64,000 bases of DNA from NCBI RefSeq assembly GCF_037940415.1, contig NZ_CP149798.1:2786501-2850500 (forward strand), in the 5' to 3' direction. This document shows positions 14,221 to 34,930 of this stretch, piece by piece. The DNA comes from Streptomyces sp. f51. GTDB lineage: Bacteria > Actinomycetota > Actinomycetes > Streptomycetales > Streptomycetaceae. Position 1 is the stretch's first letter. Each line of letters starts with the position of its first letter. Under the pieces are notes generated by a model, which saw only the letters and a list, made by a program, of their open reading frames with translations, was not told the DNA's origin and did not search any database. The position numbers and the translations under genes were made by a program.

Positions 14221-14252
14221 CGTCACGCTATTGAATTGAAACATGGGATGAG

Positions 14253-14638
14253 TGGAGATGGCGGGAATCGAACCCGCGTCCAACGGTGCAAAATCAGGGC
14301 TTCTCCGTGTGCAGTTCGCTGCGATTTTCTCAGCCCCGGCGATCACGCGAACAAGTCGCCGACGGGCTCAGTCACTGTTTGATTTCCCAGCGAACCCCGT
14401 GACCGGGCTCGATGGTTTAGTCCCCTAGATTATGCCAGGGTCCGGGTCGGGAACACTCCCGGGCTGACACCCATTAAGGGTCCTTCACTCACTGCTTATT
14501 AGGCAGCGAGGGCGAAGGACTGGGAATCGCTCTTGGAATTGGCGATTATTTTTTGCGACATATGGTTTACGAGATCATTGCCGCTTCCTCGACACGCTTC
14601 CCCTGCTTCAACAGCCGCTGTCGAAACCGATCATCCCC
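14253..14638 (-). ncRNA. ssrA: Transfer-messenger RNA (tmRNA)
   Basis: The minus strand begins GGGGATGATCGGTTTCGACA at 14638. It ends with a T-arm and acceptor strand, GGTTCGATTCCCGCC followed by ATCTCCA, at 14253, giving 386 nucleotides. The 5' GGGGATG pairs with 3' CATCTCC including the conserved G3–U wobble needed for alanylation. CCA is not encoded. The internal tag frame (14543–14499) follows AAATAATC and reads ANSKSDSQSFALAA, then two stop codons; the ALAA end is the protease degron. smpB, encoding its protein partner, lies just upstream on the same strand. Confidence 0.95.
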
Positions 14639-16610: not shown

Positions 16611-17531
16611 TCACACCTTCAGGTACTTGCGCAAGGCGAAGAACGCGGCCACCGCGGGCATCAGCAGGCTCGTGGCGAGGATGAGCGGGAGCTTGGTCAA
16701 CACGGCGTCCCAGCCGATGAAGTTGATCAGGTTCAGCTTGTGGGACAGATCCAGACCGTGGTCGATGATGAAGTACCGGGCGATCAGCAGGAATCCGCAG
16801 GCGACACCGCCGCCGATCAGTCCGGCCACCGAGGCCTCGGCGATGAACGGCGCCTGGATGTAGAAGCCGGAGGCGCCGACGAGCCGCATGATCCCCGTCT
16901 CACGCCGTCGGCTGAACGCCGAGACGCGGACGGTGTTGACGATCAGCATGAGCGCGACGACGAGCATCATCGCCATCACCGCGCGCGCGGCCCAGTTCAT
17001 GCCGTTCAGGAGCCCGAACAGGTTGTCCAGGATGCCCTTCTGGTCCTGAACGGACTGCACGCCGTCACGGCCGTCGAAGGCGGTCGCGATGACCTGGTAC
17101 TTCTCCGGGTCCTTCAGCTTGATCCGGTACGACTCCTGCATCTGGTCCGGCGTGAGGGAGCTGGCCAGCGGGGAGTCGCCGAACTGCTCCTTGTAGTGCT
17201 TGTACGCCTGGTCCGCGGACTCGTAGGTGACCTTCTGCACGACCGTGGACATCTTGTCCAGGTCGGAGACGATCTGCTTCTTCTGGTCGCTGGTGACCGC
17301 GCCCCTGGCGCAGTGCGGGTCGGACTCGGCGTCGCTCTTGTTGCAGAGGAAGATCGAGACGTTGACCTTGTCGTACCAGTAGCCCTTCATGGTGTTCACC
17401 TGGTCGCTCATCAGGAGCGATCCGCCGAACAGGGCGAGCGAGAGGGCGACCGAGACGACGACCGCGAAGGTCATGGTCAGGTTGCGGCGGAGACCGACAC
17501 CGATCTCCGACAGAACGAACTGCGCGCGCAT
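16611..17531 (-). CDS. ftsX: Cell division ABC-type membrane protein FtsX
   Basis: The 306-residue protein has the FtsX topology: a short cytoplasmic N-terminus (MRAQFVLSEIGVGLRRNLTM), a first helix at about 20–41, an extracytoplasmic domain of about 140 residues, then three helices near 182–202, 228–255 and 275–300. The cytoplasmic segment RRRETGIMRLVGAS after helix two is the FtsX-type coupling region. With FtsE it forms an ABC-like complex that does not transport solute. It relays ATP hydrolysis to wall hydrolases at the division site. The loop contains two Cys residues (near 63 and 74) that could form a disulfide, as in actinobacterial FtsX. ftsE lies 33 bases upstream. Confidence 0.96.
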   Translation of the reverse strand: MRAQFVLSEIGVGLRRNLTMTFAVVVSVALSLALFGGSLLMSDQVNTMKGYWYDKVNVSIFLCNKSDAESDPHCARGAVTSDQKKQIVSDLDKMSTVVQKVTYESADQAYKHYKEQFGDSPLASSLTPDQMQESYRIKLKDPEKYQVIATAFDGRDGVQSVQDQKGILDNLFGLLNGMNWAARAVMAMMLVVALMLIVNTVRVSAFSRRRETGIMRLVGASGFYIQAPFIAEASVAGLIGGGVACGFLLIARYFIIDHGLDLSHKLNLINFIGWDAVLTKLPLILATSLLMPAVAAFFALRKYLKV

Positions 17532-17564: not shown

Positions 17565-18254
17565 TCAGTGCTGGTAGCCGTAGACGCCGCGCGCCTGGTC
17601 GCGGACGAGACGGCCCTTCTCCAGCTCGATGACGCGCTTGCGCATCTGGTCCACGATGTTCTGGTCGTGCGTCGCCATCAGGACCGTGGTGCCCGTCCGG
17701 TTGATCCGGTCGAGCAGTTTCATGATGCCCACGGAGGTCTGTGGGTCGAGGTTTCCGGTCGGCTCGTCGGCGATGAGGAGCTTGGGCCGGTTCACGAAGG
17801 CTCTCGCGATGGCCACACGCTGCTGCTCACCACCGGACAGCTCGCCGGGCATCCGGTCCTCCTTGCCGCCCAGGCCGACGAGGTCGAGCACCTGGGGCAC
17901 GGACTTGCGGATCTCGCCGCGGGACTTGCCGATGACCTCCTGGGCGAAGGCCACGTTCTCGGCGACCGTCTTGTTGGGCAGGAGGCGGAAGTCCTGGAAC
18001 ACGGTCCCCAGCTGGCGGCGCATCTGCGGCACCTTCCAGTTGGAGAGGCGCGCGAGGTCCTTGCCCAGGACGTGCACCTGGCCTTGGCTGGTCCGCTCCT
18101 CGCGGAGGATCAGCCGCAGGAAGGTGGACTTTCCGGAGCCGGAGGACCCCACGAGGAACACGAATTCTCCGCGCTCGACCTCCAGGGAGACATCCCTGAG
18201 AGCGGGGCGGGTCTGCTTGGGGTAGACCTTGGAGACATTGTCGAATCGGATCAC
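17565..18254 (-). CDS. ftsE: Cell division ATP-binding protein FtsE
   Basis: GTG 18254 is chosen because it yields [12 protein letters not shown], the standard FtsE N-terminus, and the family-typical 229 residues; the frame extends 32 codons upstream without similarity. Walker A is GSSGSGKS (36–43), the signature is LSGGEQQR and Walker B is LLIADEP, followed by a TGNLD D-loop and the switch His in MATHDQ. It binds FtsX and energises control of septal wall hydrolysis. It is the first gene of the ftsE–ftsX pair. Confidence 0.97.
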
Positions 18255-19786: not shown

Positions 19787-20893
19787 CTACTTCTCCTGCT
19801 GCTTGCGCCAGCGAATTCCGGCCTCCAGGAAGCCGTCGATCTCGCCGCCGAACACGGCCTCGGGGTTGCCGACTTCGTGCTCCGTGCGCAGGTCCTTGAC
19901 CATCTGGTACGGATGCAGGACGTACGAACGCATCTGGTTTCCCCAGGAGTTGCCGCCGTCGCCCTTGAGGGCGTCCATCGCGGCCTGCTCCTCCTGCCGG
20001 CGCCGCTCCAGCAGCTTGGCCTGGAGGACGTTCATGGCCGAGGCCTTGTTCTGGATCTGCGAGCGTTCGTTCTGGCAGGAGACGACGATGCCGGTGGGGA
20101 GGTGGGTCAGACGCACCGCGGAGTCGGTGGTGTTGACGCCCTGGCCGCCGGGACCCGAGGAGCGGTACACGTCGACGCGCAGCTCGGACTCGTCGATCTC
20201 GATGTGGTCGGTCTGCTCGACGACCGGCAGGATCTCGACACCGGCGAAGGACGTCTGGCGGCGCCCCTGGTTGTCGAAGGGGGAGATGCGCACCAGCCGG
20301 TGCGTGCCCTGCTCCACGGAGAGCGTGCCGTACGCGTACGGGGAGTGGACGGCGAAGGTGGTGGACTTGATGCCCGCCTCCTCCGCGTACGAGGTCTCGT
20401 AGAGCTCCGTCTTGTAGCCGTGGCGCTCGGCCCAGCGCAGGTACATGCGCTGGAGCTTCTCGGCGAAGTCGGAGGCGTCCACGCCGCCGGCCTCGGCACG
20501 GATGGTGACGACGGCCTCACGGGAGTCGTACTCGCCGGACAGGAGGGTGCGGACCTCCATCTCGTCCAGCGCCTTCCGGACGGCGACGAGCTCGGCGTCG
20601 GCCTCGGCGCGGGTGTCCGGGTCGTCCTCCTCCTCGGCCATCTCGAAGAGCACGCTCAGATCGTCGATACGCCCGCGGAGCGCCTCGGCCTTCCTGACCT
20701 CCGCCTGGAGGTGGCTCAGCTTGCTGGTGATCTTCTGCGCCTCGTCCGGGTCGTCCCACAGGGACGGCGCGGCCGCCTGCTCCTCGAGCACGGCGACATC
20801 TGCCCTCAGCTTGTCGAGGTCCAGGACGGCCTCGATCGACTCCATGGTCGAGGAGAGGGACTTGAGCTCTTCGGATACATCGACGACTGCCAC
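19787..20893 (-). CDS. prfB: Peptide chain release factor 2
   Basis: RF2 recognises UGA and UAA stop codons and triggers peptidyl-tRNA hydrolysis. The 368-residue protein has the RF2 tripeptide SPF (204–206, in [17 protein letters not shown]) and the catalytic GGQ (249–251, in [20 protein letters not shown]). The N-terminal coiled region ([21 protein letters not shown]) is intact and in one frame. The programmed +1 frameshift found in E. coli prfB is therefore absent here. The gene has its own downstream terminator. Confidence 0.97.
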
Positions 20894-21135: not shown

Positions 21136-22377
21136 TCAGGGGGACGCCGGGGCCGAGTTCTTCGTGTCCTGGGGGGCCGCGCCGCCGTCGTCCGAGGTGG
21201 CGAGCCAGGTGCCGACACCCGCCGCGGCCACCAGCACGACGGCCGCCACCCCCAGCGTGATGCGCCGCCTGCGCGCGGAGGCCCGGTGCCGGGCGGACCC
21301 GGGACGCGGGGCGCCCGCGGCCCGGGGCGCGCGGGCCGTGCCCCGTGCCCCGCCGGCCAGCTCGTCGGGGGCCGGTACCCGCATGGAGGTGTGCGTGTCA
21401 CGGTTCGAGTCGGGCGCGGCCCCGGGCACCAGGGGCACCGCACCGCGCCGCTCGCGGGCCGCGGCGGGCGCGGACGGCTCCGCGCTCTCCTCGTACTCCT
21501 CGTCCCCTTCGGCGGACTCCGCGTCCGGGGAGTCCACGTCCAGCGGCGGCATCCCGGTCAGCAGCGGCAGCTGCTCGCGCAGGCGCGCGCCCAGCTCGGA
21601 GGCGCGCAGCCGGGACGCGGGCGCCTTGGCCAGACACTGCACGATCAGCTGCCACAGCTCGTCCGGGATGCCCGGGAGCGGGACCACGGTCTCGGTGACA
21701 TGGCGGCGCAGGACCGCCCCGGGGTGTCCGCCGCCGAAGGGCGTGAACCCGGCGAGCAGCTCGTAGAGCACGGTCGCCAGCGCGTAGATGTCCACGGCGG
21801 CGCGCGGCGGCAGACCCTCGATGATCTCGGGCGCGAGGTAGTCGGGCGTACCGATGATCTTCGTGACCCGGGTCCTGCGCGGCGAGTCGATGAGCTTGGC
21901 CACGCCGAAGTCGGTCAGGAGGGCCGGGTGGGAGCCGCCGGGGCCGAGCGGGCCCTGCATGTCGAGCAGGACGTTCTCGGGCTTCACATCGCGGTGGACG
22001 ACCCCGGCCGCGTGCGCGGCGGCGAGCCCGTCCGCCACGTCGGCGACGATCGCGACGGCGGCCTCGGGCGCGAGCCTGCGTTCCCGGTCGAGCCGGGTGC
22101 GCAGGTCGGTGCCCCGGACGAGGTCCATGACGAGGGCGAGGTCGTTGCCGTCCACCACCAGGTCGCGCACCGCCACCACATGGGGGTGGTCGAGGCCGAG
22201 CAGGGCGGTGCGCTCCTGCACGAAGCGCCCGACCAGCTCCTGGTCGGACGCGAGGTCCTCGCGCAGCAGCTTGATGGCGACGGGCCCCTCGGGCCCCTCG
22301 CCCAGCCACACCGTGCCGGCGCTCCCCCGCCCCAGGATCTGGTGCGCGGTGTACCTGCTGCCGATCTTGCGTGCCAA
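21136..22377 (-). CDS. pkaB: Membrane serine/threonine protein kinase PkaB
   Basis: TTG 22377 is chosen as start: AGGAG lies six bases before it and the product begins [24 protein letters not shown]. The longer frame to 22455 lacks a ribosome site. The 413-residue protein has a Hanks kinase domain at about 1–270: glycine loop GRGSAG, Lys36 (VAIK), HRDVKPEN with Asp130, DFG at 156–158 and APE. An acidic, disordered linker leads to a membrane helix near 380 ([19 protein letters not shown]) and a short outer tail. There are no PASTA repeats. It matches S. coelicolor PkaB in order and layout, next to pkaA. Confidence 0.92.
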
Positions 22378-22502
22378 GACTGCTCCTACAGACGCGTGTT
22401 GCCGCTTAAAGTACGCGCCCGAGGAGGCAACCTTCACGCCCGAGACCGAAATCACCCGTCAGATGTCGACAAGTCCCCAGAGTCGGCGCCCGGGGGCCGG
22501 GG

Positions 22503-24155
22503 TCAGTTGCCCGACGGACTCTTCGAGCCGAGATCCCCGACCCAGTTCTTGACGTTGTCGTACCAGTGGGTCAGCTCGCCCCAGTAGCTCCGGCCGGAGC
22601 CGATCCAGTGCTGGAGGGGGCTGAACTCCCAGATCAGCCAGCCGGCCACGAACAGGATGACGATCGTGAACAGGCACCCCTTGAGGCAGCCGAGGCCCGG
22701 GATCTTCATCGGGTTGGCGCCGCGCTGCCTGGGCTCGCGCTGCTGGCGGGGGGCGGGCTGCTGGGGCCGCTGCGGCTCGGGCGCGTACCGCTGCGGCTGG
22801 GGCTGCTGCTGGGGCGCGGGGGCGTAGCGCTGCTGCTGTTGCTGGTGCTGCGGCGCGTGCTGCTGCTGCTGCGGATAGCCGTATCCGGGCGGCGGCTGCT
22901 GGCCGCGCTGCTGCTGGGGCTGCTGCCGCTGCGGGCGCGCGACCTGGCGCTGCGGGCGGTGGCGCAGCGGGTCCTCGTTCGGGTCGAGGTACTGGACCTG
23001 CGTCTGTTCGTTGCGGTCACGGGCCGCGCGCAGCTGGTTCTGCCAGGGGTGCGGGTCCTCGCCCTGGCCGCCCGGTCCGCCCGGCTGGTTCTGCGGCACG
23101 GGCGGCAGCACGGCGGTCGGGTCGGCCGCGCCCGCGGTGTGCGGCAGCACGCTGGTGGCGCCGTACGGGTCGTAGGAGGCCGCGCCCTGCGGGAGCACCT
23201 GGGTGGCGTCGGCCGCGCCGGGGACGTCCGGGACGTAGGCGGGGGCCGGGTCGGGCCCGAGCAGGGCGCCCACACCCTCGGCGGCGGCGATCTGCGCCGG
23301 GGACGCGTGCACCCCGACGCCCGCGGCGACGGCACGCAGTGCGCGCGCGAGGTTCTCGGCGCTGGGCCGTTGGTCGGGGTTCTTGCGCAGGCAGCGCTCT
23401 ATGACGGTCCAGAGCGGGTCGGGGACCGTCGAGGGGCGGCGCGGTTCGGCGCTCAGGTGCTGGTGCAGCACTTCGAGGGCGGACTCGCCCGCGAACGGCG
23501 GGCGCCCGGTGACGAGCTCGTAGATCAGGATGCCGGCGCCGTAGATGTCGACGGCGGACGTCTGCGGGCGTCCCTCGGCGGACTCGGGGGCGACGTACGC
23601 GGGCGTGCCGACGAATTCGTGGGTCCGGGTGAGTCCGGGCGAGTCGGCGAGCCGCGCGATGCCGAAGTCGGTCAGCATCGGGTGCATCTGGCCCGCTTCC
23701 TGCTTGAGCAGGACGTTCGCGGGCTTCAGGTCGCGGTGCACGACGCCGTCGGCGTGGCTGGCCGCGAGCGCGTCGGCGATCTGGGCGGTGAGCAGGGCGG
23801 CCGCGACGGGCGAGAACGGGCCGTTCTCGCGCAGGTAGCGGTGCAGGTCGGGGCCGTCGACCAGGTCCATGACGAGGGCGAGGAGATCGCCTTCGACGAC
23901 GAGGTCGCGCACGCGCACGATGTTCGGGTGGGTCAGGCGCAGCAGCACCGACCGCTCCCGCAGGAAGCGCATCACGATGTCGGCGTCGCTCGCGAGCTCT
24001 TCCTTCAGGACCTTGATCGCCACGGTCTCGCCGGGCTGTCCCGCGACGGCCGCCTCGGCGCCCGCGGTCTCCCGCTGGCGGGCTCGCCAGACCGTGCCTG
24101 TGGCGCCGCGCCCCAGCGGCTCCTCAAGGAGGTACTTGCTCCCTACCGGCCGCAC
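22503..24155 (-). CDS. pkaA: Serine/threonine protein kinase PkaA with Gln-rich linker and C-terminal helix
   Basis: The 550-residue protein starts MRPVGSKYLLEEPLGRGATGTVW. The kinase domain has Lys48 (VAIK), HRDLKPAN with Asp142, DFG (163–165) and an intact APE. It is followed by a disordered region that becomes extremely rich in Gln and Pro between about 390 and 480. A C-terminal membrane helix (GCLFTIVILFVAGWLIW) and an outward Trp/Tyr-rich tail complete it. It precedes pkaB on the same strand with a 125-base gap. On the other side it is divergent from a very large FHA-domain protein. FHA domains bind phosphothreonine, so that neighbour is a plausible substrate or reader. Confidence 0.93.
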   Translation of the reverse strand: MRPVGSKYLLEEPLGRGATGTVWRARQRETAGAEAAVAGQPGETVAIKVLKEELASDADIVMRFLRERSVLLRLTHPNIVRVRDLVVEGDLLALVMDLVDGPDLHRYLRENGPFSPVAAALLTAQIADALAASHADGVVHRDLKPANVLLKQEAGQMHPMLTDFGIARLADSPGLTRTHEFVGTPAYVAPESAEGRPQTSAVDIYGAGILIYELVTGRPPFAGESALEVLHQHLSAEPRRPSTVPDPLWTVIERCLRKNPDQRPSAENLARALRAVAAGVGVHASPAQIAAAEGVGALLGPDPAPAYVPDVPGAADATQVLPQGAASYDPYGATSVLPHTAGAADPTAVLPPVPQNQPGGPGGQGEDPHPWQNQLRAARDRNEQTQVQYLDPNEDPLRHRPQRQVARPQRQQPQQQRGQQPPPGYGYPQQQQHAPQHQQQQQRYAPAPQQQPQPQRYAPEPQRPQQPAPRQQREPRQRGANPMKIPGLGCLKGCLFTIVILFVAGWLIWEFSPLQHWIGSGRSYWGELTHWYDNVKNWVGDLGSKSPSGN

Positions 24156-24646
24156 GTCATGCGCTCCCTGTTGCTTGCTTGCCTGGTCCGTCCACCGTGA
24201 TCACCGTGGTACAGGAGTTTCCGACCCACTGTAGTGCCGCCCTGCCCTGCACAGGGCTGTCCTCCTGGTGTGCTTTCCCATAGGTCCCGTGCGCACCTGT
24301 GGTCCGCATAAGCGCATACGCGGGCGCTCCCGTCCATGTTCGACGTGAAGCCGCTCCCTTGCGTTCGACGGAAAGACGCTCACTTCGGTCGGTTGGTTGC
24401 CGGGACCGGGCGTGAGTGATCTCAAGCCGACATCGGGAGGGCACTGGTCAGGAACTTTTACGGGCAGAGCCGACCAATCAAGATCACTTACAGGTGGGGG
24501 GCGGGCGTGTTGTCGGTGGCAGGTGCGAGGATGCCTCCAGTTACTGGCCGACGTGCCCGTGTGCGGTGGGGGGATCTGCGGTGGGGGACCGCAGCGCAGC
24601 CTCGTCCTCGTCGCGGACACCTGCGCGGAAGGGACCCCTGACGGCG
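24156..24646. other. Divergent promoter region between pkaA and the FHA gene
   Basis: About 490 bases separate the two divergent starts. It must hold promoters for both directions. A 24440–24500 stretch is relatively A/T-rich. I could not define a -35/-10 pair, an operator or a small gene with confidence. A continuous frame upstream of ATG 24647 shows no conserved features. Confidence 0.5.
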
Positions 24647-27600
24647 ATGCAGATCCGGCTGACCGTCGTAGACCCGCTGGGCCCGTCATCGGAGCCGCGG
24701 GGGCGAGCCGCGGCCTGCGATGTGCTGGTCACCGCGCCCGCCGGGACGGCGCTGGCCGCGGTCGCGTCGGGACTGGCCGCGGCGGTCGGGGGAAGCGGGG
24801 GTGCCTCCCAGGGCGAGCGGGGCCGTGAGCCCGCCGGGAGCCAGATCGTGCTCTACGCGGGCACGGAGCGGCTCGACGCCCACCGCTGCACGCTGGGCGA
24901 GCCGCCACTGACCGACGGCGCCGTGCTGTCCCTGGGCGCTCCCGCCGAGCCCGGTCCCGACCTGGACGACGTCTCGGCCCAGCTCCACGTGGTCGCGGGG
25001 CCCGACGCGGGCGGGGTGCATCTGCTGCACGGCGGCCAGATCCGCGTCGGCCGCTCGGCGGACGCCGACGTGCCCCTGGACGACCCGGACGTGTCCCGCC
25101 TGCACTGCGCGGTCACCGTCACCCCCGAGGGCCGTGTCTCGGTCGCCGACATCGGGTCCACGAACGGCACGACACTCGACGGCGCCCGCGTCGGCAGCCG
25201 CCCCGTCGTCCTGACGGCGGGCGCCCTGCTGCGCGTCGGCGAGTCCGCCCTGCGGCTCGCCCCGCCCGGAGGTCCCGGCGTCGTGGAGACGGCCCCGGAC
25301 GGCGAGGGCCATGTGCGGGTACGGGCCGGGGCGGACGCACGGGCGCAGGGGCGCCGCGGTCCGGCCACCGCCGGCACCCCGCCCCGGTGGGACACCGCCT
25401 CCGCGACCCCGGGCGGCTTCTCCTCGCAGGGCTCACCGGCAGGTCCAGGCGGCCAGGACACCGGCACGCCCGCGTCACGGGGCGCCTCGCAGCCGCGCGG
25501 CGCCGTGCCCCACGCGCGCGGGGAGAGCGCCTCCCTCGCCCAGGGCGGCGCCCTGCCGCCCACGGGCGAGACGCATCACGCCTACGGGACCGCCGAGTGG
25601 GGAGCCTCCGCGGGGGGCGTCCCCGGCGGACCGGAACACGGACGGGCGGTGCCCCTCGCCGTCCCGGAGCAGGGCGGAGCACCCCGGATCGAGAGCGGAC
25701 CTCGGGGCTCGACGGCGCAGGGCCGTGGCCCGGGCGCTGCGCGGGGCTCGGCCGCGGAAAGCCGGGACCCGGGAGTTCCACGGGGATCGGCGTCGTGGGA
25801 CCGGGACTCCGGCGCGCCGGAGTCGGAAACCGGCTCTCCGGGCGGGTCCGCGCGCGAAGCGGGACGTCCGTCCGGGTCCGCGGACCCGGACCGGTGGGAC
25901 GGGACAGGACCCGCGGACACGGGGAACCACGGCCCCGGCACGGGCGACACCCCCGGAGCCGCCGTTCCCGGTGCGCGCGCGGGCACGCCGACGCGGGGCA
26001 CGGACCTGCCCGCGGGAGCGCGCAGGCGGGGCGGTATCGGCGCATGGGCCCGGCGTCTGACCGGCGGCCGCGGCGGACCGGACCGGCCCGCACGGGAGAC
26101 GTACGAAGAGGGTGCCGTCGCCGTCGAGGAGCTCCTCCCCGCCGTGCCGCGCTCGCCCGAGAGCTGGCCCGACCCGGCGACCCTGCTGCTCACCGCGCTG
26201 GGCCCGGGTCCGCGGCTGTGGGAGCGGGGTCCCGGTCACCCCGAGGCGCTGACGGTCCGGCTGGGCACGGCCGACCGGGCGGCACCGGACGGCTCGGGCC
26301 TGCTGCCCGCGGTGCCGGTGACCGCCGGGCTGCGGGAGGCGGGATCGCTGGGCCTCGCCGGACCGCGGGCACGCCTGTCGGGACTGGCCCGCTCGGTGGT
26401 CGCGCAGCTCGCCGCGCTGCACTCCCCCGACACCCTGGAGATCGTCCTCATCAGCACCGACCGGGCCCGGCCGGTGGAGGAGCGCACCGCCGAGTGGTCC
26501 TGGCTCGGCTGGCTCCCCCATCTGCGTCCCGCCCACGGCCAGGACTGCCGGCTGCTTCTGGCCTACGACCGTGAGCAGGCGGCGGCCCGCACGGACGAGC
26601 TCCTGCGCCGCCTGGAGGACCACCTGGCGGAGGCAACGGGCGCGCCACGCGTTCCCGGCGCCGGGCCCGGGGGCTCCGGTGCCACGGTTCCGGCCGCCCG
26701 GTCCGGGACGCACGACAGCGGCGGCGGCCCCGGCGACCACCCCGCCCCGTCCGGCGGTTCGCGGGGCACGGCACGCAGGCCCTCCTGGGCACGCGCCGAC
26801 GACACGGACGACGGCCACGACGGCCCGTACACGGTGGTGATCGTGGACGGGGACCCCGGGGGCGCCGATGTGCGCGAGGCCCTGACGCGTCTCGCGCACG
26901 AGGGCTCGGGGGCCGGGATCCATCTGGTGTGCCTCGCCGAGACCGCGGCCGCCTCCCCCTCGTCACCGGTGACGGAGACCTACGAAGCGGCGTGCCAGGC
27001 GTCGCCCGCGTTCCGCGCGTGCGGGGCCGTCGCCCTGCTGAGCGGGGACGTGGCCACCGCGCTGCGGCTGATGCGGGTGGCGCCGGGCGGTGACGGCGGG
27101 CACACTCCCGCCTCCGCGCACACCGGCTCCCGGCAGGACGGACCCGACGGCTCCCCGCGCACCCCCTCGCGCTCCGGGCCCCTGCCCGACGGAACCACCC
27201 ACACCGGCATCCCGCACCCCGCGGCGGAACGCCGGGGCGCTCCCGGGGGCGGCGGTCGCGCCGACGTCCCCGCGCCCCGCACGAACCGCGCCGCCCCCGG
27301 GCCGTTCGCCCGGGGTCCCGTGGGCCACGGCACGGTCGCCGCCGTGGACGCCGTGTCCCTCGCCTGGGCCGAGCGGTTCGCCCGGTCGCTCGCGCCATTG
27401 CGCACGGACGGTGCGCTCGGCGACCGGCACCCGCGCGTGTCCGCTCCCCTGCCGCAGACGGCGCGGCTGCTCGACGAACTGGGGCTGGCACGGGCCACCC
27501 CCGCCTCCCTGATGGCGCGCTGGGCGGACGCGGCGGACGACAGCGAGGCGTTCGGCGGACGGGCGCGGGCGGTGCTCGGCGCCGGCCCGCGCGGACCCGT

Positions 27601-28606
27601 CGCCGTCGACCTGCCCGTCGAGGGCCCCCATCTGATGATCGAGGGCCCGCCCGGCAGCGGCCGTACGGAACTGCTGCGCTCGGTCGCCGCGTCACTCGCC
27701 GCCGCAGAACGGCCCGACCGGCTCGGCATGGTCCTCATGGACGGACGCGACGGAACATCGGCCCACGGCGCCGCGGGCGGAGAGGGCCTCCAGGTCTGCA
27801 CCGACCTGCCGCACGTCACCACCCACCTGACGGCCAACGACCCGGTCCGGATGCGGGAGTTCGCCCAGTCGCTGAGTGCCGAGCTGAAGCGGCGCTCCGA
27901 GCTCCTCGGCCGCCTCGGCTTCGCGGAGTGGCACGCCGGGCGGACGGTCCCCGGACGGATCGTGACCCAGCGCTCGGGCGGCAGCTCGTCGGCCGGGACC
28001 TCGTCCCCGGGCGCCTCGGACCTGGACACGCCGTCCAGCTCGACCCTGCGGCTGCGCCCAGCCGCCGCGCGGCAGCAGGCCGAGGCGGGACCCCCGCTGG
28101 CCCGGCTGGTCGTGGTCGTCGACGACCTGGACGCCCTGCTGGCACCGCCGTTGGGCTCCCCCGGACGTCCGGCGGCCGGTTCGGTCGTACGGGCTCTGGA
28201 GGCCGTCGTCCGGGAAGGCGACCGGCTCGGGGTGCACCTCGTGGCCGCGTGCGGCGCCGACGGCCGTACGGCCGCGTCGGAGCTGGCGCGTTCCGCCGCG
28301 CTGCGCGTCACCCTCGACGCTCCGTCCGCCGGACCCGAGGAACCCGCCCCCGGGCGGGGCCGGCTGCGGCGTCCCGACGGCCGGGAGACCGCGTTCCAGG
28401 GCGGACGGGTCACGGGCCGCATTCCCAGGACGGCGACCCTGCGCCCCACGGTCGTCCCCCTGGAGTGGCACCGCATGGGCGACCCGCCGGCCCGCCGCCC
28501 GGTCCGCGAGCTGGGCAACGGACCGACCGACCTGGCCCTGCTCGCCAGCGCCCTGGAGCGGGCCGCGCGTTCCGTCTCCGCGGCCGAGATGCCCTCGCTG
28601 CTGTAG
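24647..28606 (+). CDS. Giant FHA-domain protein with degenerate FtsK/EssC-like ATPase module
   Basis: Start ATG 24647 gives 1319 residues beginning MQIRLTVVDPLG. Residues about 110–205 form an FHA phosphothreonine-binding domain: IRVGRSADADVPL, SRLHC and the STNGT motif near 171. About 270 residues of Gly/Pro/Arg/Ser-rich disorder follow. The C-terminal half contains an FtsK/SpoIIIE-type module like those of EccC/EssC: GPHLMIEGPPGSGRTELL near 1000, LPHVTTHLTANDPVRMREFAQSLSAELKRRSELL, and Walker B LVVVVDDLD near 1155. The Walker A lysine is replaced by Arg1006, so ATP hydrolysis may be impaired. No WXG100 genes are nearby. Being divergent from pkaA, it may be a kinase-regulated scaffold. Function unknown. 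Confidence 0.8.
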   Translation: MQIRLTVVDPLGPSSEPRGRAAACDVLVTAPAGTALAAVASGLAAAVGGSGGASQGERGREPAGSQIVLYAGTERLDAHRCTLGEPPLTDGAVLSLGAPAEPGPDLDDVSAQLHVVAGPDAGGVHLLHGGQIRVGRSADADVPLDDPDVSRLHCAVTVTPEGRVSVADIGSTNGTTLDGARVGSRPVVLTAGALLRVGESALRLAPPGGPGVVETAPDGEGHVRVRAGADARAQGRRGPATAGTPPRWDTASATPGGFSSQGSPAGPGGQDTGTPASRGASQPRGAVPHARGESASLAQGGALPPTGETHHAYGTAEWGASAGGVPGGPEHGRAVPLAVPEQGGAPRIESGPRGSTAQGRGPGAARGSAAESRDPGVPRGSASWDRDSGAPESETGSPGGSAREAGRPSGSADPDRWDGTGPADTGNHGPGTGDTPGAAVPGARAGTPTRGTDLPAGARRRGGIGAWARRLTGGRGGPDRPARETYEEGAVAVEELLPAVPRSPESWPDPATLLLTALGPGPRLWERGPGHPEALTVRLGTADRAAPDGSGLLPAVPVTAGLREAGSLGLAGPRARLSGLARSVVAQLAALHSPDTLEIVLISTDRARPVEERTAEWSWLGWLPHLRPAHGQDCRLLLAYDREQAAARTDELLRRLEDHLAEATGAPRVPGAGPGGSGATVPAARSGTHDSGGGPGDHPAPSGGSRGTARRPSWARADDTDDGHDGPYTVVIVDGDPGGADVREALTRLAHEGSGAGIHLVCLAETAAASPSSPVTETYEAACQASPAFRACGAVALLSGDVATALRLMRVAPGGDGGHTPASAHTGSRQDGPDGSPRTPSRSGPLPDGTTHTGIPHPAAERRGAPGGGGRADVPAPRTNRAAPGPFARGPVGHGTVAAVDAVSLAWAERFARSLAPLRTDGALGDRHPRVSAPLPQTARLLDELGLARATPASLMARWADAADDSEAFGGRARAVLGAGPRGPVAVDLPVEGPHLMIEGPPGSGRTELLRSVAASLAAAERPDRLGMVLMDGRDGTSAHGAAGGEGLQVCTDLPHVTTHLTANDPVRMREFAQSLSAELKRRSELLGRLGFAEWHAGRTVPGRIVTQRSGGSSSAGTSSPGASDLDTPSSSTLRLRPAAARQQAEAGPPLARLVVVVDDLDALLAPPLGSPGRPAAGSVVRALEAVVREGDRLGVHLVAACGADGRTAASELARSAALRVTLDAPSAGPEEPAPGRGRLRRPDGRETAFQGGRVTGRIPRTATLRPTVVPLEWHRMGDPPARRPVRELGNGPTDLALLASALERAARSVSAAEMPSLL

Positions 28607-32547: not shown

Positions 32548-32650
32548 TGGCCGTTCACCCGGCATCCCCCGTACGCCACATCTGGCGTAACCAAGTCACC
32601 CCTTCGGCCGTTTTCGGGCAGGTATGCCCGCGCCGACCCATGGATGTCCC

Positions 32651-34930
32651 GTGCCCAGGTTCAGTGTCATCGTCCCCGCGTACAAGGTTCAGGCGTACCT
32701 GCACGAGTGCCTCGAATCCGTGCTCGGACAGTCCTTCTTGGACCTCGAACTCATCGCGGTCGACGACTGTTCACCGGACGCCTGCGGGACGATCATCGAC
32801 GAGTTCGCGGCCCGCGACGCCCGCGTCAGGGCCGTGCACCTGCCCGAGAACGTGGGGCTCGGACGGGCCCGCAACGCCGGTCTGGAGCGGGCCACCGGGG
32901 ACTACCTGGTCTTCCTGGACAGCGACGACACCCTGACCCCCGGCGCGCTCGGGGCCGTCGCCGACCGGATCAGGGAGACGGACGACCCGGACGTCCTGGT
33001 CTACGACTACGCGCGCACGTTCTGGTCCGGCGAGGTCGTGCGCAACAAGGTCTCGGCGCAGCTGGCCGAGGACGGTCCCGCGCCCTTCCGGCTGGAGGAG
33101 CGGCCCGGACTGCTGCGGCTGCTGATGGTGGTCTGGAACAAGGCCTACCGCCGGGAGTTCGTCGAGCGCGCGGGCCTGCGGTTCCCGCCCGGCTACTACG
33201 AGGACACGCCCTGGACGTATCCGGCGCTGATGTCCGCCGGGACGATCGCGACCCTCGACCGCGTCTGTGTGCACTACCGCCAGCGGCGCCACGGCAGCAT
33301 CCTCGGCACCAGCAGCCGCAAGCACTTCGACGTCTTCGAGCAGTACGACCGTGTCTTCGCGCATGTCGCCGCGCACCCCGAGCTGGACCGGTGGCGTCCG
33401 GTGCTGTTCCGGCGCATGGTCGACCACTTCGCCACGGTGTTCGTGAAGCGGGGCCGGCTCCCGCGCGCGTCCCGGGCCGAGTTCCTGCGCAAGGCCCGTA
33501 CGCACTGCCGCCGTTACCGCGTCCCGGGCGCCCCCGCCGCGCCGCGCACCCGGCTGCGGCACGCCCTGGTCGGCCTCGGCGCGCACCGCACGTACCGTCT
33601 GCTCTCCTTCCTGTCGCGGATCCGCAAGAGAGCCGTGCGGATCACCGCCGGGCTGCGGCGCGCGGTGCGCGGGGCGGCCCTCCAGTTCCACTACCGCGTC
33701 CAGCTGCGGCTCCCGCTGCGCGCCGACCGTGCCGTCTTCTCCAGCTACTGGGGCCGGGGTCACGGCTGCAACCCGGGGGCCCTGGAGTCCGCGTTCCGCA
33801 GCTTCGCGCCGCACATCCGCACGGCGTGGATCGCGCACCCCGAGCACCAGCACACGATCCCGGCCCCGGCCCGGCCGCTGTCTCCCGGCACGGCGGGGTA
33901 CTGGACGGCGCTCGCCCGCTCCAAGTACCTGGTGAACAACGTCAACTTCGACCGGCGGCTGGTCAAACGGCCCGGTCAGATCATGATCCAGACGCAGCAC
34001 GGGACACCGCTCAAGCGGATGGGGCTGGACCTCCAGGACCGCCCGGCGGCCGCGCGCGGCACCGACTTCGCCGAGCTGCTGCGCGGTGCCGACAAGTGGG
34101 ACTACTGCCTGTCGGGCAACCGCCACTCCACGCTGGTCTGGGAGCGGGTCTTCCCCTCCTCGTACACGACGCTGGAGTACGGCCTGCCCCGCAACGACGT
34201 GTTCCAGCACGCGACTTCGGCGGACGTGGACCGGCTGCGCGAATCGCTGGGCATCCCGGCGGGCACGGTCGCCGTGCTGTACGCGCCGACGTTCCGGGAC
34301 TACCGGGCCGGCCGGCCGGCCGGCCCGGACCTGGAGCGGGTGCTGCGCCGGCTGGGTCCGCGCTTCGTCGTACTGGCCCGCGCCCATCACGCCGAGGGGG
34401 CGTTCGCGGAGACGGCGGGCGGCCGGGTCATCGACGTGTCGGGGCATCCGAGCGTCGAGTCGCTGTGTCTGGCCTCGGACGCGCTGGTCACCGACTACTC
34501 GTCGCTGATGTTCGACTACGCGGTCCTCGACCGGCCGATCGTCGTCCTCGCGGAGGACTGGGAGGCGTACGAGGCGGCCCGCGGCACGTACTTCGACCTG
34601 CGCGCCTTCCCGCCGGGCGCCGTGGCGCGCGGCGAGGACGAGCTGGTCGACGTCTTCGCGACCGGGCTCTGGCGCGACGCCCGCGCCGAGCGGCTGCGGG
34701 CCGCGTTCCGTGAGCGGTTCTGCCCCTACGACGACGGGCGCGCCGCCGAACGGGTCGTACGGCACGTCGTGCTCGGCGAGAGCGCGGGACTGCCGCCGTT
34801 CGTGCCGTTCGCCGAGCGGCGCCCGGTCCCCTCGGCGGAGGCGGCCCTCGCGCGGGGGCCCGGCCCGGAGCGGCCGCTCGGGAGCGTTCCGGCCCCCGGC
34901 GCCGCCGTCCCCCTGTCCGAGACCCTCTGA
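32651..34930 (+). CDS. GT2 glycosyltransferase fused to CDP-glycerol:poly(glycerophosphate) transferase, copy 1
   Basis: GTG 32651 aligns with the starts of the two paralogues that follow (V/M-PRFSVIVP). ATG 32624 is an alternative nine codons upstream. The 759-residue protein has an N-terminal GT2 domain (FSVIVPAYKVQAYLHECLESVLGQS, DDCSPD, FLDSDDTL, about 1–220) and a basic, helical middle. The C-terminal TagF-type domain carries IQTQHGTPLKRMG with the expected catalytic His450, LARAHH with the second His, and LVTDYSSLMFDYAVLDRPIVVL. TagF-type enzymes add glycerol-phosphate units from CDP-glycerol. The fusion suggests it adds both sugar and polyol-phosphate to a wall polymer. It is cytoplasmic or membrane-peripheral. 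Confidence 0.88.
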   Translation: MPRFSVIVPAYKVQAYLHECLESVLGQSFLDLELIAVDDCSPDACGTIIDEFAARDARVRAVHLPENVGLGRARNAGLERATGDYLVFLDSDDTLTPGALGAVADRIRETDDPDVLVYDYARTFWSGEVVRNKVSAQLAEDGPAPFRLEERPGLLRLLMVVWNKAYRREFVERAGLRFPPGYYEDTPWTYPALMSAGTIATLDRVCVHYRQRRHGSILGTSSRKHFDVFEQYDRVFAHVAAHPELDRWRPVLFRRMVDHFATVFVKRGRLPRASRAEFLRKARTHCRRYRVPGAPAAPRTRLRHALVGLGAHRTYRLLSFLSRIRKRAVRITAGLRRAVRGAALQFHYRVQLRLPLRADRAVFSSYWGRGHGCNPGALESAFRSFAPHIRTAWIAHPEHQHTIPAPARPLSPGTAGYWTALARSKYLVNNVNFDRRLVKRPGQIMIQTQHGTPLKRMGLDLQDRPAAARGTDFAELLRGADKWDYCLSGNRHSTLVWERVFPSSYTTLEYGLPRNDVFQHATSADVDRLRESLGIPAGTVAVLYAPTFRDYRAGRPAGPDLERVLRRLGPRFVVLARAHHAEGAFAETAGGRVIDVSGHPSVESLCLASDALVTDYSSLMFDYAVLDRPIVVLAEDWEAYEAARGTYFDLRAFPPGAVARGEDELVDVFATGLWRDARAERLRAAFRERFCPYDDGRAAERVVRHVVLGESAGLPPFVPFAERRPVPSAEAALARGPGPERPLGSVPAPGAAVPLSETL

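Follow-up and report, generated by a model that had tools for sequence, protein, structure and literature searches.

Introduction

The described systems closest to the locus analysed here include the EccC coupling ATPase of type VII secretion and, in S. coelicolor, SCO2975, encoded beside pkaA. The motifs of an active D1 ATPase domain are given as GxxGxGK[S/T] and hhhhDE (PMC11154593), and the phosphothreonine consensus of the FHA domain of TsdC, from the T7SSd system, is described as well conserved (PMC11217815). S. coelicolor PkaB was reported to be membrane-integral (PMC3087755). In the same organism pkaA and sco2975 are listed as sigma-E targets, with both sco2974 and sco2975 in the sigma-E table (PMC6767563).

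Beyond the sigma-E table, we found no description of a sco2975-type protein in the open-licence literature. Here we describe the orthologue of this gene in a window of 64,000 nucleotides from Streptomyces sp. f51 (Table 1).

Table 1. Coordinates of features at the pkaA locus, as positions in the window
Feature	Position	Strand	Basis or remark
ftsX, syntenic marker	16614..17531	-	52% identity to ftsX of L245
ftsE, syntenic marker	17568..18254	-	80% identity to ftsE of L245
prfB (release factor 2), syntenic marker	19787..20893	-	Pfam PCRF and RF-1
PkaB Ser/Thr kinase, C-terminal anchor	21136..22455	-	Pfam Pkinase 1.9e-46
PkaA Ser/Thr kinase, C-terminal hydrophobic helix aa 494-509	22503..24155	-	Pfam Pkinase 1.2e-54
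Three T-x-V-L-P repeats (Thr318, 334, 347), PkaA juxtamembrane linker	23103..23204	-	Candidate FHA docking sites
Sigma-E-like promoter toward pkaA, GGCAACC...CGTCTT	24373..24401	-	Resembles S. coelicolor pkaA promoter (PMC6767563)
Half-EccC FHA protein, sco2975 orthologue	24647..28606	+	1319 aa from probable ATG
Probable ubiquitin-like (YukD-like) N-terminal domain	24647..24946, approximate bounds	+	Alignment with EccC paralogue N-terminus
FHA domain, aa 132-198 (Arg136, Ser150, Asn173)	25040..25240	+	Pfam PF00498 and conservation
EccC D0/DUF-like degenerate ATPase domain, ~aa 505-811	26159..27079	+	phmmer to EccC5 DUF chain 8rin; BLAST to P0004
EccC D1-like FtsK pseudo-ATPase domain with D1-D2 linker	27347..28603	+	Pfam FtsK_SpoIIIE 2.5e-13; VIA-align fold matches
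Walker A GPPGSGRT	27644..27667	+	Arg1006 codon CGT = 27662-27664
Walker B Asp1159-Asp1160	28121..28126	+	Asp in catalytic Glu position

Gene and locus conservation

A preliminary description reported pkaA divergent from a gene for an FHA protein, and we confirm both reading frames (pkaA, and 24416-28606 on the plus strand) and their arrangement. Its residue number 1006 matches counting from the ATG at 24647, not from the GTG at 24416 used for its coordinates. We infer that ATG 24647 is the likelier start, because alignment columns upstream of it mostly lack a majority residue and those downstream are largely invariant (12 sequences), because the open frame of a distant relative, L189, starts just 10 residues ahead of MQIR, and because GTG 24416 overlaps a stretch similar to the published sco2975 promoter. 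As counter-evidence, close relatives align upstream of the ATG as well. The published promoter string has an exact copy upstream of the orthologue in L041. The protein is present in every Streptomycetaceae genome sampled (31/31 and 26/26 in two samples).

The proposed neighbourhood link to the kinase also holds: pkaA is divergently adjacent in 120/120 testable loci, a count from which 6 of 133 loci without the N-terminus of the protein were excluded. The pkaB gene was counted in 111/112, including L139, where the match is pkaA itself. Since prfB is retained in 106/109 testable loci, the kinase adjacency is in part general synteny. A downstream solute-binding gene is retained in 11/25 other-genus loci and in 1/11 sister-family loci. 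At L141, pkaA is still in place, and pkaB and prfB have moved away.

Domain organization and descent from EccC

By sequence comparison, the protein is a soluble half-EccC, with a ubiquitin-like domain (probable), an FHA domain, D0, one FtsK-type D1 and the D1-D2 linker. The earlier suggestion of descent from a secretion motor is supported by EccC homology, profile matches and the D1 fold. Three blocks are collinear with P0004, the full EccC of the same genome (BLAST), and the N-terminus aligns to that of P0004 with 33% identity across the ubiquitin-like and FHA parts. The best NCBIfam matches are EccCa and EssC, both far below cut-off (TIGR03924, 129.2 against 509.15 bits; TIGR03928, 68.4 against 778.4 bits). 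Full-length P0004 likewise scores below both cut-offs.

The FtsK/HerA P-loop fold is indicated by the Pfam FtsK_SpoIIIE match and by structure matches of the D1 model to EssC, EccC, TcpA and FtsK (VIA-align Z 20-24). Among the top 15 matches, the 13 restricted to D1 have Z of 20-24 and rmsd of 2.6-4.8 Å, and the two covering D0 and D1 have rmsd of 19-22 Å. The D0-D1 model has a mean pLDDT of 55, with D1 blocks mostly at 58-87, and only its D1 part is tested well by structure comparison. D0-D1 is strongly conserved, with a mean column identity of 60% vs 74% in the N-terminal part (inserts included).

D2 and D3 are absent, as the protein terminates past the D1-D2 linker. Across 75 rows, a simple hydropathy scan (19-residue window, no dedicated predictor) showed no strongly hydrophobic stretch from the FHA domain to D0; the top mean was 1.07, vs 2.11 in P0004. 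The preliminary description saw no type VII substrates nearby, and indeed no WXG100 gene was found near the locus; the two matches in the genome (C1:4220866 and C1:4238601) lie 1.4 Mb away. Among this genome's FtsK_SpoIIIE matches, P0004 is the one further EccC-like gene; a WXG100 gene adjoins it and a kinase ORF is close by.

The N-terminal ubiquitin-like domain is probable. Pfam YukD matches are weak (4/33 members at E <=1, best E 0.027), the window protein scores 14 bits, below the cut-off of 27, and the AlphaFold (AF2) model of the ubiquitin-like and FHA part has a pLDDT of 47. The FHA domain is intact, as first described, with GRS, SRLH and STNGT present (Pfam 5.5e-16). Its binding-site residues are retained almost throughout (Arg in 75/75, Ser and Asn each in 74/75 rows); the odd row is L140, where the open frame used excludes the FHA part.

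Loss of ATPase residues

The P-loop reads GPPGSGRT with Arg1006, as noted before. This residue is present in 81/81 close sequences, so its conservation is more than chance. The 81 comprise the window plus the 80 best loci out of 372 relatives, which were found with six peptides, one of them next to the P-loop. Walker B, previously thought to be kept, reads VVVVDD, with Asp where the catalytic Glu belongs; the same Asp occurs in 80/81 close sequences. GPPGSGRT and VVVVDD do not match the active D1 pattern (GxxGxGK[S/T], hhhhDE).

We extended the comparison to 75 rows spanning the host family and its two sisters (families f39 and f40, which may include Catenulisporaceae; 13 sister-family genomes had a match and 11 were fetched). 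With P0004 these form a 76-row set, which includes 15 of the 81 close sequences (the window and 14 of the 80 loci) and omits 11 partial or duplicate-locus rows (L129, L130, L131, L132, L152, L179 and L184-L188). The catalytic Walker B Glu is present in 0/75, and the ATQR Gln of EccC in 0/75. The Walker A residue is Arg in 40 rows, Lys in 24, Val/Ile in 10 and deleted in 1, the last two classes being the 11 sister-family rows. Gly1005 and Thr/Ser1007 are each retained in 74/75, and the GSG of the P-loop is altered in L031 and L065.

In the alignment proposed earlier as a check on Arg1006, the residue is invariant among close sequences; orthologues with Lys, named in advance as evidence against the first proposal, make up 24 of the wider rows. 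We reject Arg1006 as the key innovation that it had been taken for, as Lys-type orthologues, which occur in other genera, have lost the catalytic Glu as well. Because that Glu is missing there too, normal ATPase activity is not expected in the Lys-type proteins. Overall, the family looks like a pseudo-ATPase in which the FHA site has been retained.

A single origin of Arg was also rejected, as a quick tree gives five changes between Arg and not-Arg. Two of these depend on the long-branch rows L141 and L200, and a safer count is three groups (the main Streptomyces clade, L135/L136 and L145/L146). For a Walker A of the EccC type, Arg is not in itself unusual: D2 and D3 of the EccC of this genome read SGRS.

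Candidate docking sites and sigma-E promoters

FHA domains commonly select the residue at +3 from the phosphothreonine. The juxtamembrane linker of PkaA carries repeated T-x-x-[LM]-P motifs, which are candidate phosphothreonine docking sites. This pattern was broadened after exceptions to T-x-V-[LM]-P appeared, and its shuffle control takes no account of common descent. Linkers were located with BLAST and were long enough to count in 125/126 cases for PkaA and 117/118 for PkaB. The motif is missing from 3/28 other-genus PkaA linkers. Control patterns are enriched in PkaA too: T-x-[LM]-P in other genera (0.61 vs 0.13) and sister families (0.55 vs 0.07), and S-x-x-[LM]-P in sister families (0.55 vs 0.18). 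Once Val is permitted at +3, the motif occurs in PkaB linkers of the genus too (0.48 vs 0.15). In a rough control with other kinases of the same genomes, 3/26 loci carry one T-x-[VIL]-[LIVM]-P each, counting L217, where the frame is probably that of a neighbour; of the 30 loci drawn, L209, L222 and L237 gave no linker and L218 gave PkaA's own.

A sigma-E-like site directed toward pkaA is present in 86/86 loci of the genus, 19/25 other-genus loci and 0/3 sister-family loci, where mononucleotide shuffles give a chance expectation of ~6-7%; 19 of the 133 loci scanned yielded no intergenic region. The sco2975 promoter, as printed in the available part of PMC6767563, is poorly kept in the window.

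FHA-EccC genes outside the order

We examined 11 FHA-EccC neighbourhoods outside the order, from 37 matching genomes outside the host family; four were on a short contig or had the gene at a contig end. Two contain prfB (G037 and G057) and one, G037, a PkaA/PkaB-related kinase. This distant actinomycete contig carries an FHA-EccC with a Lys-type Walker A, a WXG100 gene and the kinase at the same prfB-ftsEX locus. It is a single contig from an assembly with 6% contamination. Its EccC runs off the end of the contig, which leaves Walker A as the one visible part of D1; the FHA site of this EccC lacks the Asn, and no T-x-x-[LMV]-P motif was found in the kinase. A midpoint-rooted tree of 18 of the 75 family rows, 22 EccC rows and the cut G037 row places the G037 EccC beside the half-EccC family with 86% support. 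Given this layout, the module may be what is left of a type VII system that was linked to a kinase.

Proposed function and alternatives

We lean towards a soluble pseudo-ATPase scaffold, derived from a type VII coupling ATPase, docked through its FHA domain on PkaA and acting as a platform in the sigma-E stress response. The apparent loss of motor and anchor, the retention of FHA and the kinase adjacency at all testable loci suggest that a machine for secretion became a scaffold for signalling. By sequence, the protein retains the FHA-bearing head of EccC together with D0 and D1, and has lost the transmembrane helices, D2 and D3. PkaA or PkaB would phosphorylate the T-x-x-[LM]-P repeats of the PkaA linker, and the FHA domain would bind the phosphothreonines and so recruit the protein to the membrane kinase. 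D0-D1 could then provide a multivalent platform in the cell-envelope stress response, perhaps by forming a ring in which nucleotide is bound but not turned over. Nucleotide binding fits the window lineage, which mostly keeps the glycines of the P-loop together with a basic residue and Thr/Ser; in the sister families the basic residue is missing, and a scaffold role cannot rely on ATP everywhere.

Some of this evidence can be read differently. The protein could, though improbably, be a GarA/OdhI-like effector, switched by phosphorylation and acting on a metabolic or cell-wall enzyme, with the PkaA repeats meant for another partner. Its FHA domain does match OdhI and GarA (phmmer), and the genome has 11 FHA domain matches, counting that of the window, which implies other PkaA readers; the matched OdhI and GarA chains are, however, short (100-163 aa) and here D0-D1 is strongly conserved too. 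It is similarly unlikely that the kinase adjacency is leftover synteny without a functional link: prfB is conserved nearly as well, but the pair outlasts the upstream rearrangement in L141 and wide downstream change, and the sigma-E table lists the two genes.

We give slightly less weight to a subunit that regulates the P0004 and WXG100 system or acts on it as a dominant negative, co-assembling via D0/D1 under kinase control. D0-D1 is common to both proteins and P0004, with its WXG100 gene and nearby kinase, is the sole other EccC-like candidate among the FtsK_SpoIIIE matches, yet the loci are 1.4 Mb apart and the membrane and D2/D3 parts are absent here. Least probable, in our judgement, is an ATPase that is still slow or conditional, such as a translocase part with Arg for Lys and Asp for Glu. 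The conserved Gly1005 and Thr/Ser1007 and the Lys rows would suit it; the complete loss of the catalytic Glu and ATQR Gln, the Val/Ile or deleted P-loops of the sister families, the altered GSG in two loci and the missing membrane helix, D2 and D3 all argue against it.

If the pseudo-ATPase scaffold is the correct reading, its ancestor was probably a type VII system linked to a kinase. One may tentatively go further, to a conversion at the original prfB-ftsEX locus in which a kinase-linked type VII system became a non-secreting phospho-signalling platform: a dead, soluble and perhaps ring-forming scaffold, with FHA heads on a T-x-x-[LM]-P array in the kinase tail of the former system, giving multivalent assembly at the membrane and a role in envelope stress, in this actinomycete order. 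We hold this fuller account possible and no firmer, because the ancestral layout was seen in one contig from the contaminated G037 assembly.

Significance and comparison with known systems

If true, this would clearly exemplify a secretion motor that became a pseudo-enzyme reader, in each Streptomycetaceae genome sampled, and the little-studied pkaA and pkaB kinases of Streptomyces would gain a specific, testable partner and docking site. Lys, Arg, Val/Ile and a deleted P-loop form a natural series on the death of an ATPase with its fold retained.

The order of D0 and D1, the D1 fold and the D1-D2 linker are common to the half-EccC and to EccC of T7SSa (T. curvata 4nh0 and M. tuberculosis EccC5). 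Unlike EccC, the half-EccC lacks the transmembrane helices, D2/D3, the catalytic Glu and the ATQR Gln, and its Walker Lys is often replaced, whereas the FHA site is intact. T7SSd likewise has an FHA-bearing ATPase and a Ser/Thr kinase in one locus (TsdC/TsdD); however, TsdC is a membrane ATPase with a WXG100 component, as described in the available part of PMC11217815, and the half-EccC locus has neither. The actinobacterial GarA/OdhI and FhaB-type proteins have a similar FHA domain but not the EccC-derived domains. The available part of PMC6767563 has no domain analysis of SCO2975 of S. coelicolor and calls it simply a hypothetical protein belonging to the sigma-E regulon; it is the same gene, judging from the printed promoter string in L041 and its position next to pkaA.

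Descent of the half-EccC FHA protein

The preliminary description of an FHA protein with Arg in its Walker A motif, divergent from PkaA, holds. Its likely start was placed from alignment and the open frame of a distant relative; close relatives align upstream of this ATG too, and the residue number 1006 for the Arg holds only with this start. We identified an FHA domain and a single FtsK_SpoIIIE domain (Pfam). The top NCBIfam matches are EccCa and EssC, with scores far under the cut-off, and the top solved sequence relatives are T. curvata EccC, EccC5 and the EccC5 DUF. The nearest relatives, among the matches listed, are from Streptomyces.

The 8.15 Mb genome also encodes a full EccC paralogue, P0004 (locus L094), that is collinear with the half-EccC protein over three blocks (33% identity for the N-terminus and FHA, 32% for D0, 29% for D1 and the D1-D2 linker). 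P0004 has D2, D3 and a strongly hydrophobic stretch, read from its sequence as two putative helices, and its FHA site is decayed. The half-EccC protein is the reverse, with an intact FHA site and without the hydrophobic stretch, D2 and D3. Between FHA and D0, no segment mean hydropathy exceeds 1.07 in 75 aligned rows (the half-EccC family and two sister families), compared to 2.11 in P0004. AlphaFold gave a D0-D1 model that is weak as a whole (pLDDT 55), but in which D1 matches EssC, FtsK, TcpA and EccC chains with Z of 20-24. The collinear blocks, EccC-type sequence and D1 fold matches bear out the proposed derivation from a secretion motor; at the level of sequence, descent from EccC is shown. 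A WXG100 gene (contig C1:4220866) adjoins the P0004 gene, a Ser/Thr kinase ORF is near (C1:4213503), and the Walker A motifs of P0004 D2 and D3 also read SGRS.

Features in the window and in comparison loci
Feature	Position	Strand	Description
Half-EccC FHA protein	likely start ATG 24647	divergent from pkaA	FHA and FtsK_SpoIIIE domains
PkaA	22503-24155	-	Ser/Thr kinase (Pfam)
PkaB	21136-22455	-	Ser/Thr kinase (Pfam)
P0004	L094:8004-12617 = G000 (this genome) C1:4216003-4220616	-	full EccC-like gene, 1537 aa
G037 (distant actinomycete) cluster	L245:1-12456		FHA-EccC, WXG100, Ser/Thr kinase, Tad-type genes, prfB-ftsE-ftsX
Glycosyltransferase + CDP-glycerol glycerophosphotransferase protein	32624-34930		teichoic-acid type; 3' of ABC transporter genes
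tmRNA gene	14252-14638		tag ANSKSDSQSFALAA

Loss of catalytic residues

Half-EccC matches were found in 31/31 sampled Streptomycetaceae genomes (17 genera; loci were fetched and read for the 30 besides our own) and, at E <= 1e-30, in 39/41 genomes of the order; the two others are 90% and 81% complete. The forms read in the two sister families (11 of the 13 genomes with a match were fetched) are mostly frames of 900-1100 aa.

Arg was proposed as the key change. It is present at position 1006 in 81/81 close sequences (ours and the best 80 of 372 relatives), but conservation does not extend across the family and sister families, where the 75 rows have Arg (40), Lys (24), Val (8), Ile (2) or a gap (1). 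Nor is Walker B kept, as had been thought: the Glu position is Asp in 65 rows, Asn in 6 and Gly in 4, and the Gln of ATQR occurs in 0/75. The FHA site is indeed intact (Arg 75/75, Ser 74/75, Asn 74/75). Judged from these alignments, catalytic residues have been lost in the half-EccC family. A quick tree has seven Walker A state changes, five of them between Arg and the rest. The simplest reading would be that the common ancestor had already lost catalysis before Lys was replaced, with the FHA site kept; our verdict is that Arg1006 is probably a late detail of this older loss. The P-loop GSG is also changed in two Streptomyces orthologues (SSG in L031, AAG in L065). In L140, the FHA part and D0-D1 are in different open frames; a split gene or a frame error may account for this.

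Genomic context and regulation

The synteny set comprised 133 loci (the window, the best 80 of 372 relatives, 32 other family and 20 order-level), with the N-terminus present in 127. The gene-neighbourhood link to the kinase is confirmed: pkaA is the divergent neighbour in all 120 loci with enough upstream DNA (74/74, 11/11, 27/27 and 8/8 by group), although retention of prfB in 106/109 shows that gene order on the upstream side is well conserved anyway. The same is not true downstream (solute-binding gene retained in 72/73, 10/11, 11/25 and 1/11). In L141 pkaA is still in place and pkaB and prfB have moved elsewhere; no pkaB was found close to the pkaA and half-EccC pair of L139. In S. coelicolor, PkaB is tail-anchored (PMC3087755), and PkaI, from the spore-wall complex, was seen to interact with PkaA (PMC4416010).

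A class-wide search of 118 genomes gave matches at E <= 1e-20 in 45 (37 outside the family), and most of their open frames, going by the lengths listed, would be about the size of EccC. On a single contig of G037 the order is FHA-EccC, WXG100 gene, Ser/Thr kinase, Tad/VirB11-type ATPase gene, two T2SSF genes, an ORF without Pfam match, prfB, ftsE and ftsX. The window shares this layout, running from half-EccC through pkaA, pkaB and prfB to ftsE and ftsX. The G037 FHA-EccC is cut by the contig end, has Walker A GTTGAGKSELLR and lacks the FHA Asn. The G037 cluster has the look of a type VII one, either T7SSd-like or undescribed, in an assembly with 6% contamination. In G057 a full FHA-EccC lies close to prfB, with no related kinase there. 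Placed in a tree together with 22 EccC rows, the half-EccC family forms one group (99% support), and the G037 protein is nearest to it, an unsure placement (86% support).

A table of 91 putative S. coelicolor sigma-E targets includes sco2974 (pkaA) and sco2975, named as a hypothetical protein; a list of 21 promoters with predicted conservation in 9 or more of 19 genomes includes that of pkaA and not that of sco2975 (PMC6767563). The printed sco2975 promoter string matches L041 exactly, 5' of the half-EccC orthologue, which ties the two names together. A pkaA-ward sigma-E-like site is present in 86/86 genus loci and 19/25 of other genera (about 6-7% expected), and in 0/3 sister-family loci.

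PkaA linker repeats and function

Between its kinase domain and membrane helix, PkaA has three T-x-V-L-P copies. The strict pattern (T-x-V-[LM]-P) occurs in 86/86 genus PkaA linkers (3.23 per linker vs 0.035 shuffled), 25/28 of other genera and 5/11 of sister families, and in 1/117 PkaB linkers. For T-x-x-[LM]-P, a looser form picked after exceptions had been seen, the counts are 86/86, 25/28, 11/11 and 4/117. Genus PkaA linkers are flat for control patterns that have Ser or a different spacing. Other-genus and sister-family PkaA are enriched for T-x-[LM]-P, sister-family PkaA for S-x-x-[LM]-P, and genus PkaB linkers for T-x-x-[LMV]-P. Elsewhere in the genome, three of up to 26 kinases have one strict-type copy each.

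It has been proposed that juxtamembrane domains, once phosphorylated, serve as docking sites that are typically read by FHA domains (PMC12077195). The PkaA repeats are a candidate docking array for FHA, and the most likely function of the half-EccC protein is that of a kinase-docked scaffold. We infer phospho-binding to PkaA, assembly and a role in stress.

T7SS loci that combine a kinase with an FHA ATPase of phospho-Thr type are known; the passages on them show no soluble half-EccC, and the words "soluble" and "truncated" are absent from that text (PMC11217815). In M. tuberculosis, the Thr sites that are reduced when PknA is depleted show a preference for acidic residues (-1 and -3 to -6), Pro (-1 and +2), Leu/Val (+3) and basic residues (+4) (PMC7164672). 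The PkaA repeats resemble these sites in their Pro (-1) and Leu (+3), and differ from them in Asp at -2 and Pro at +4.
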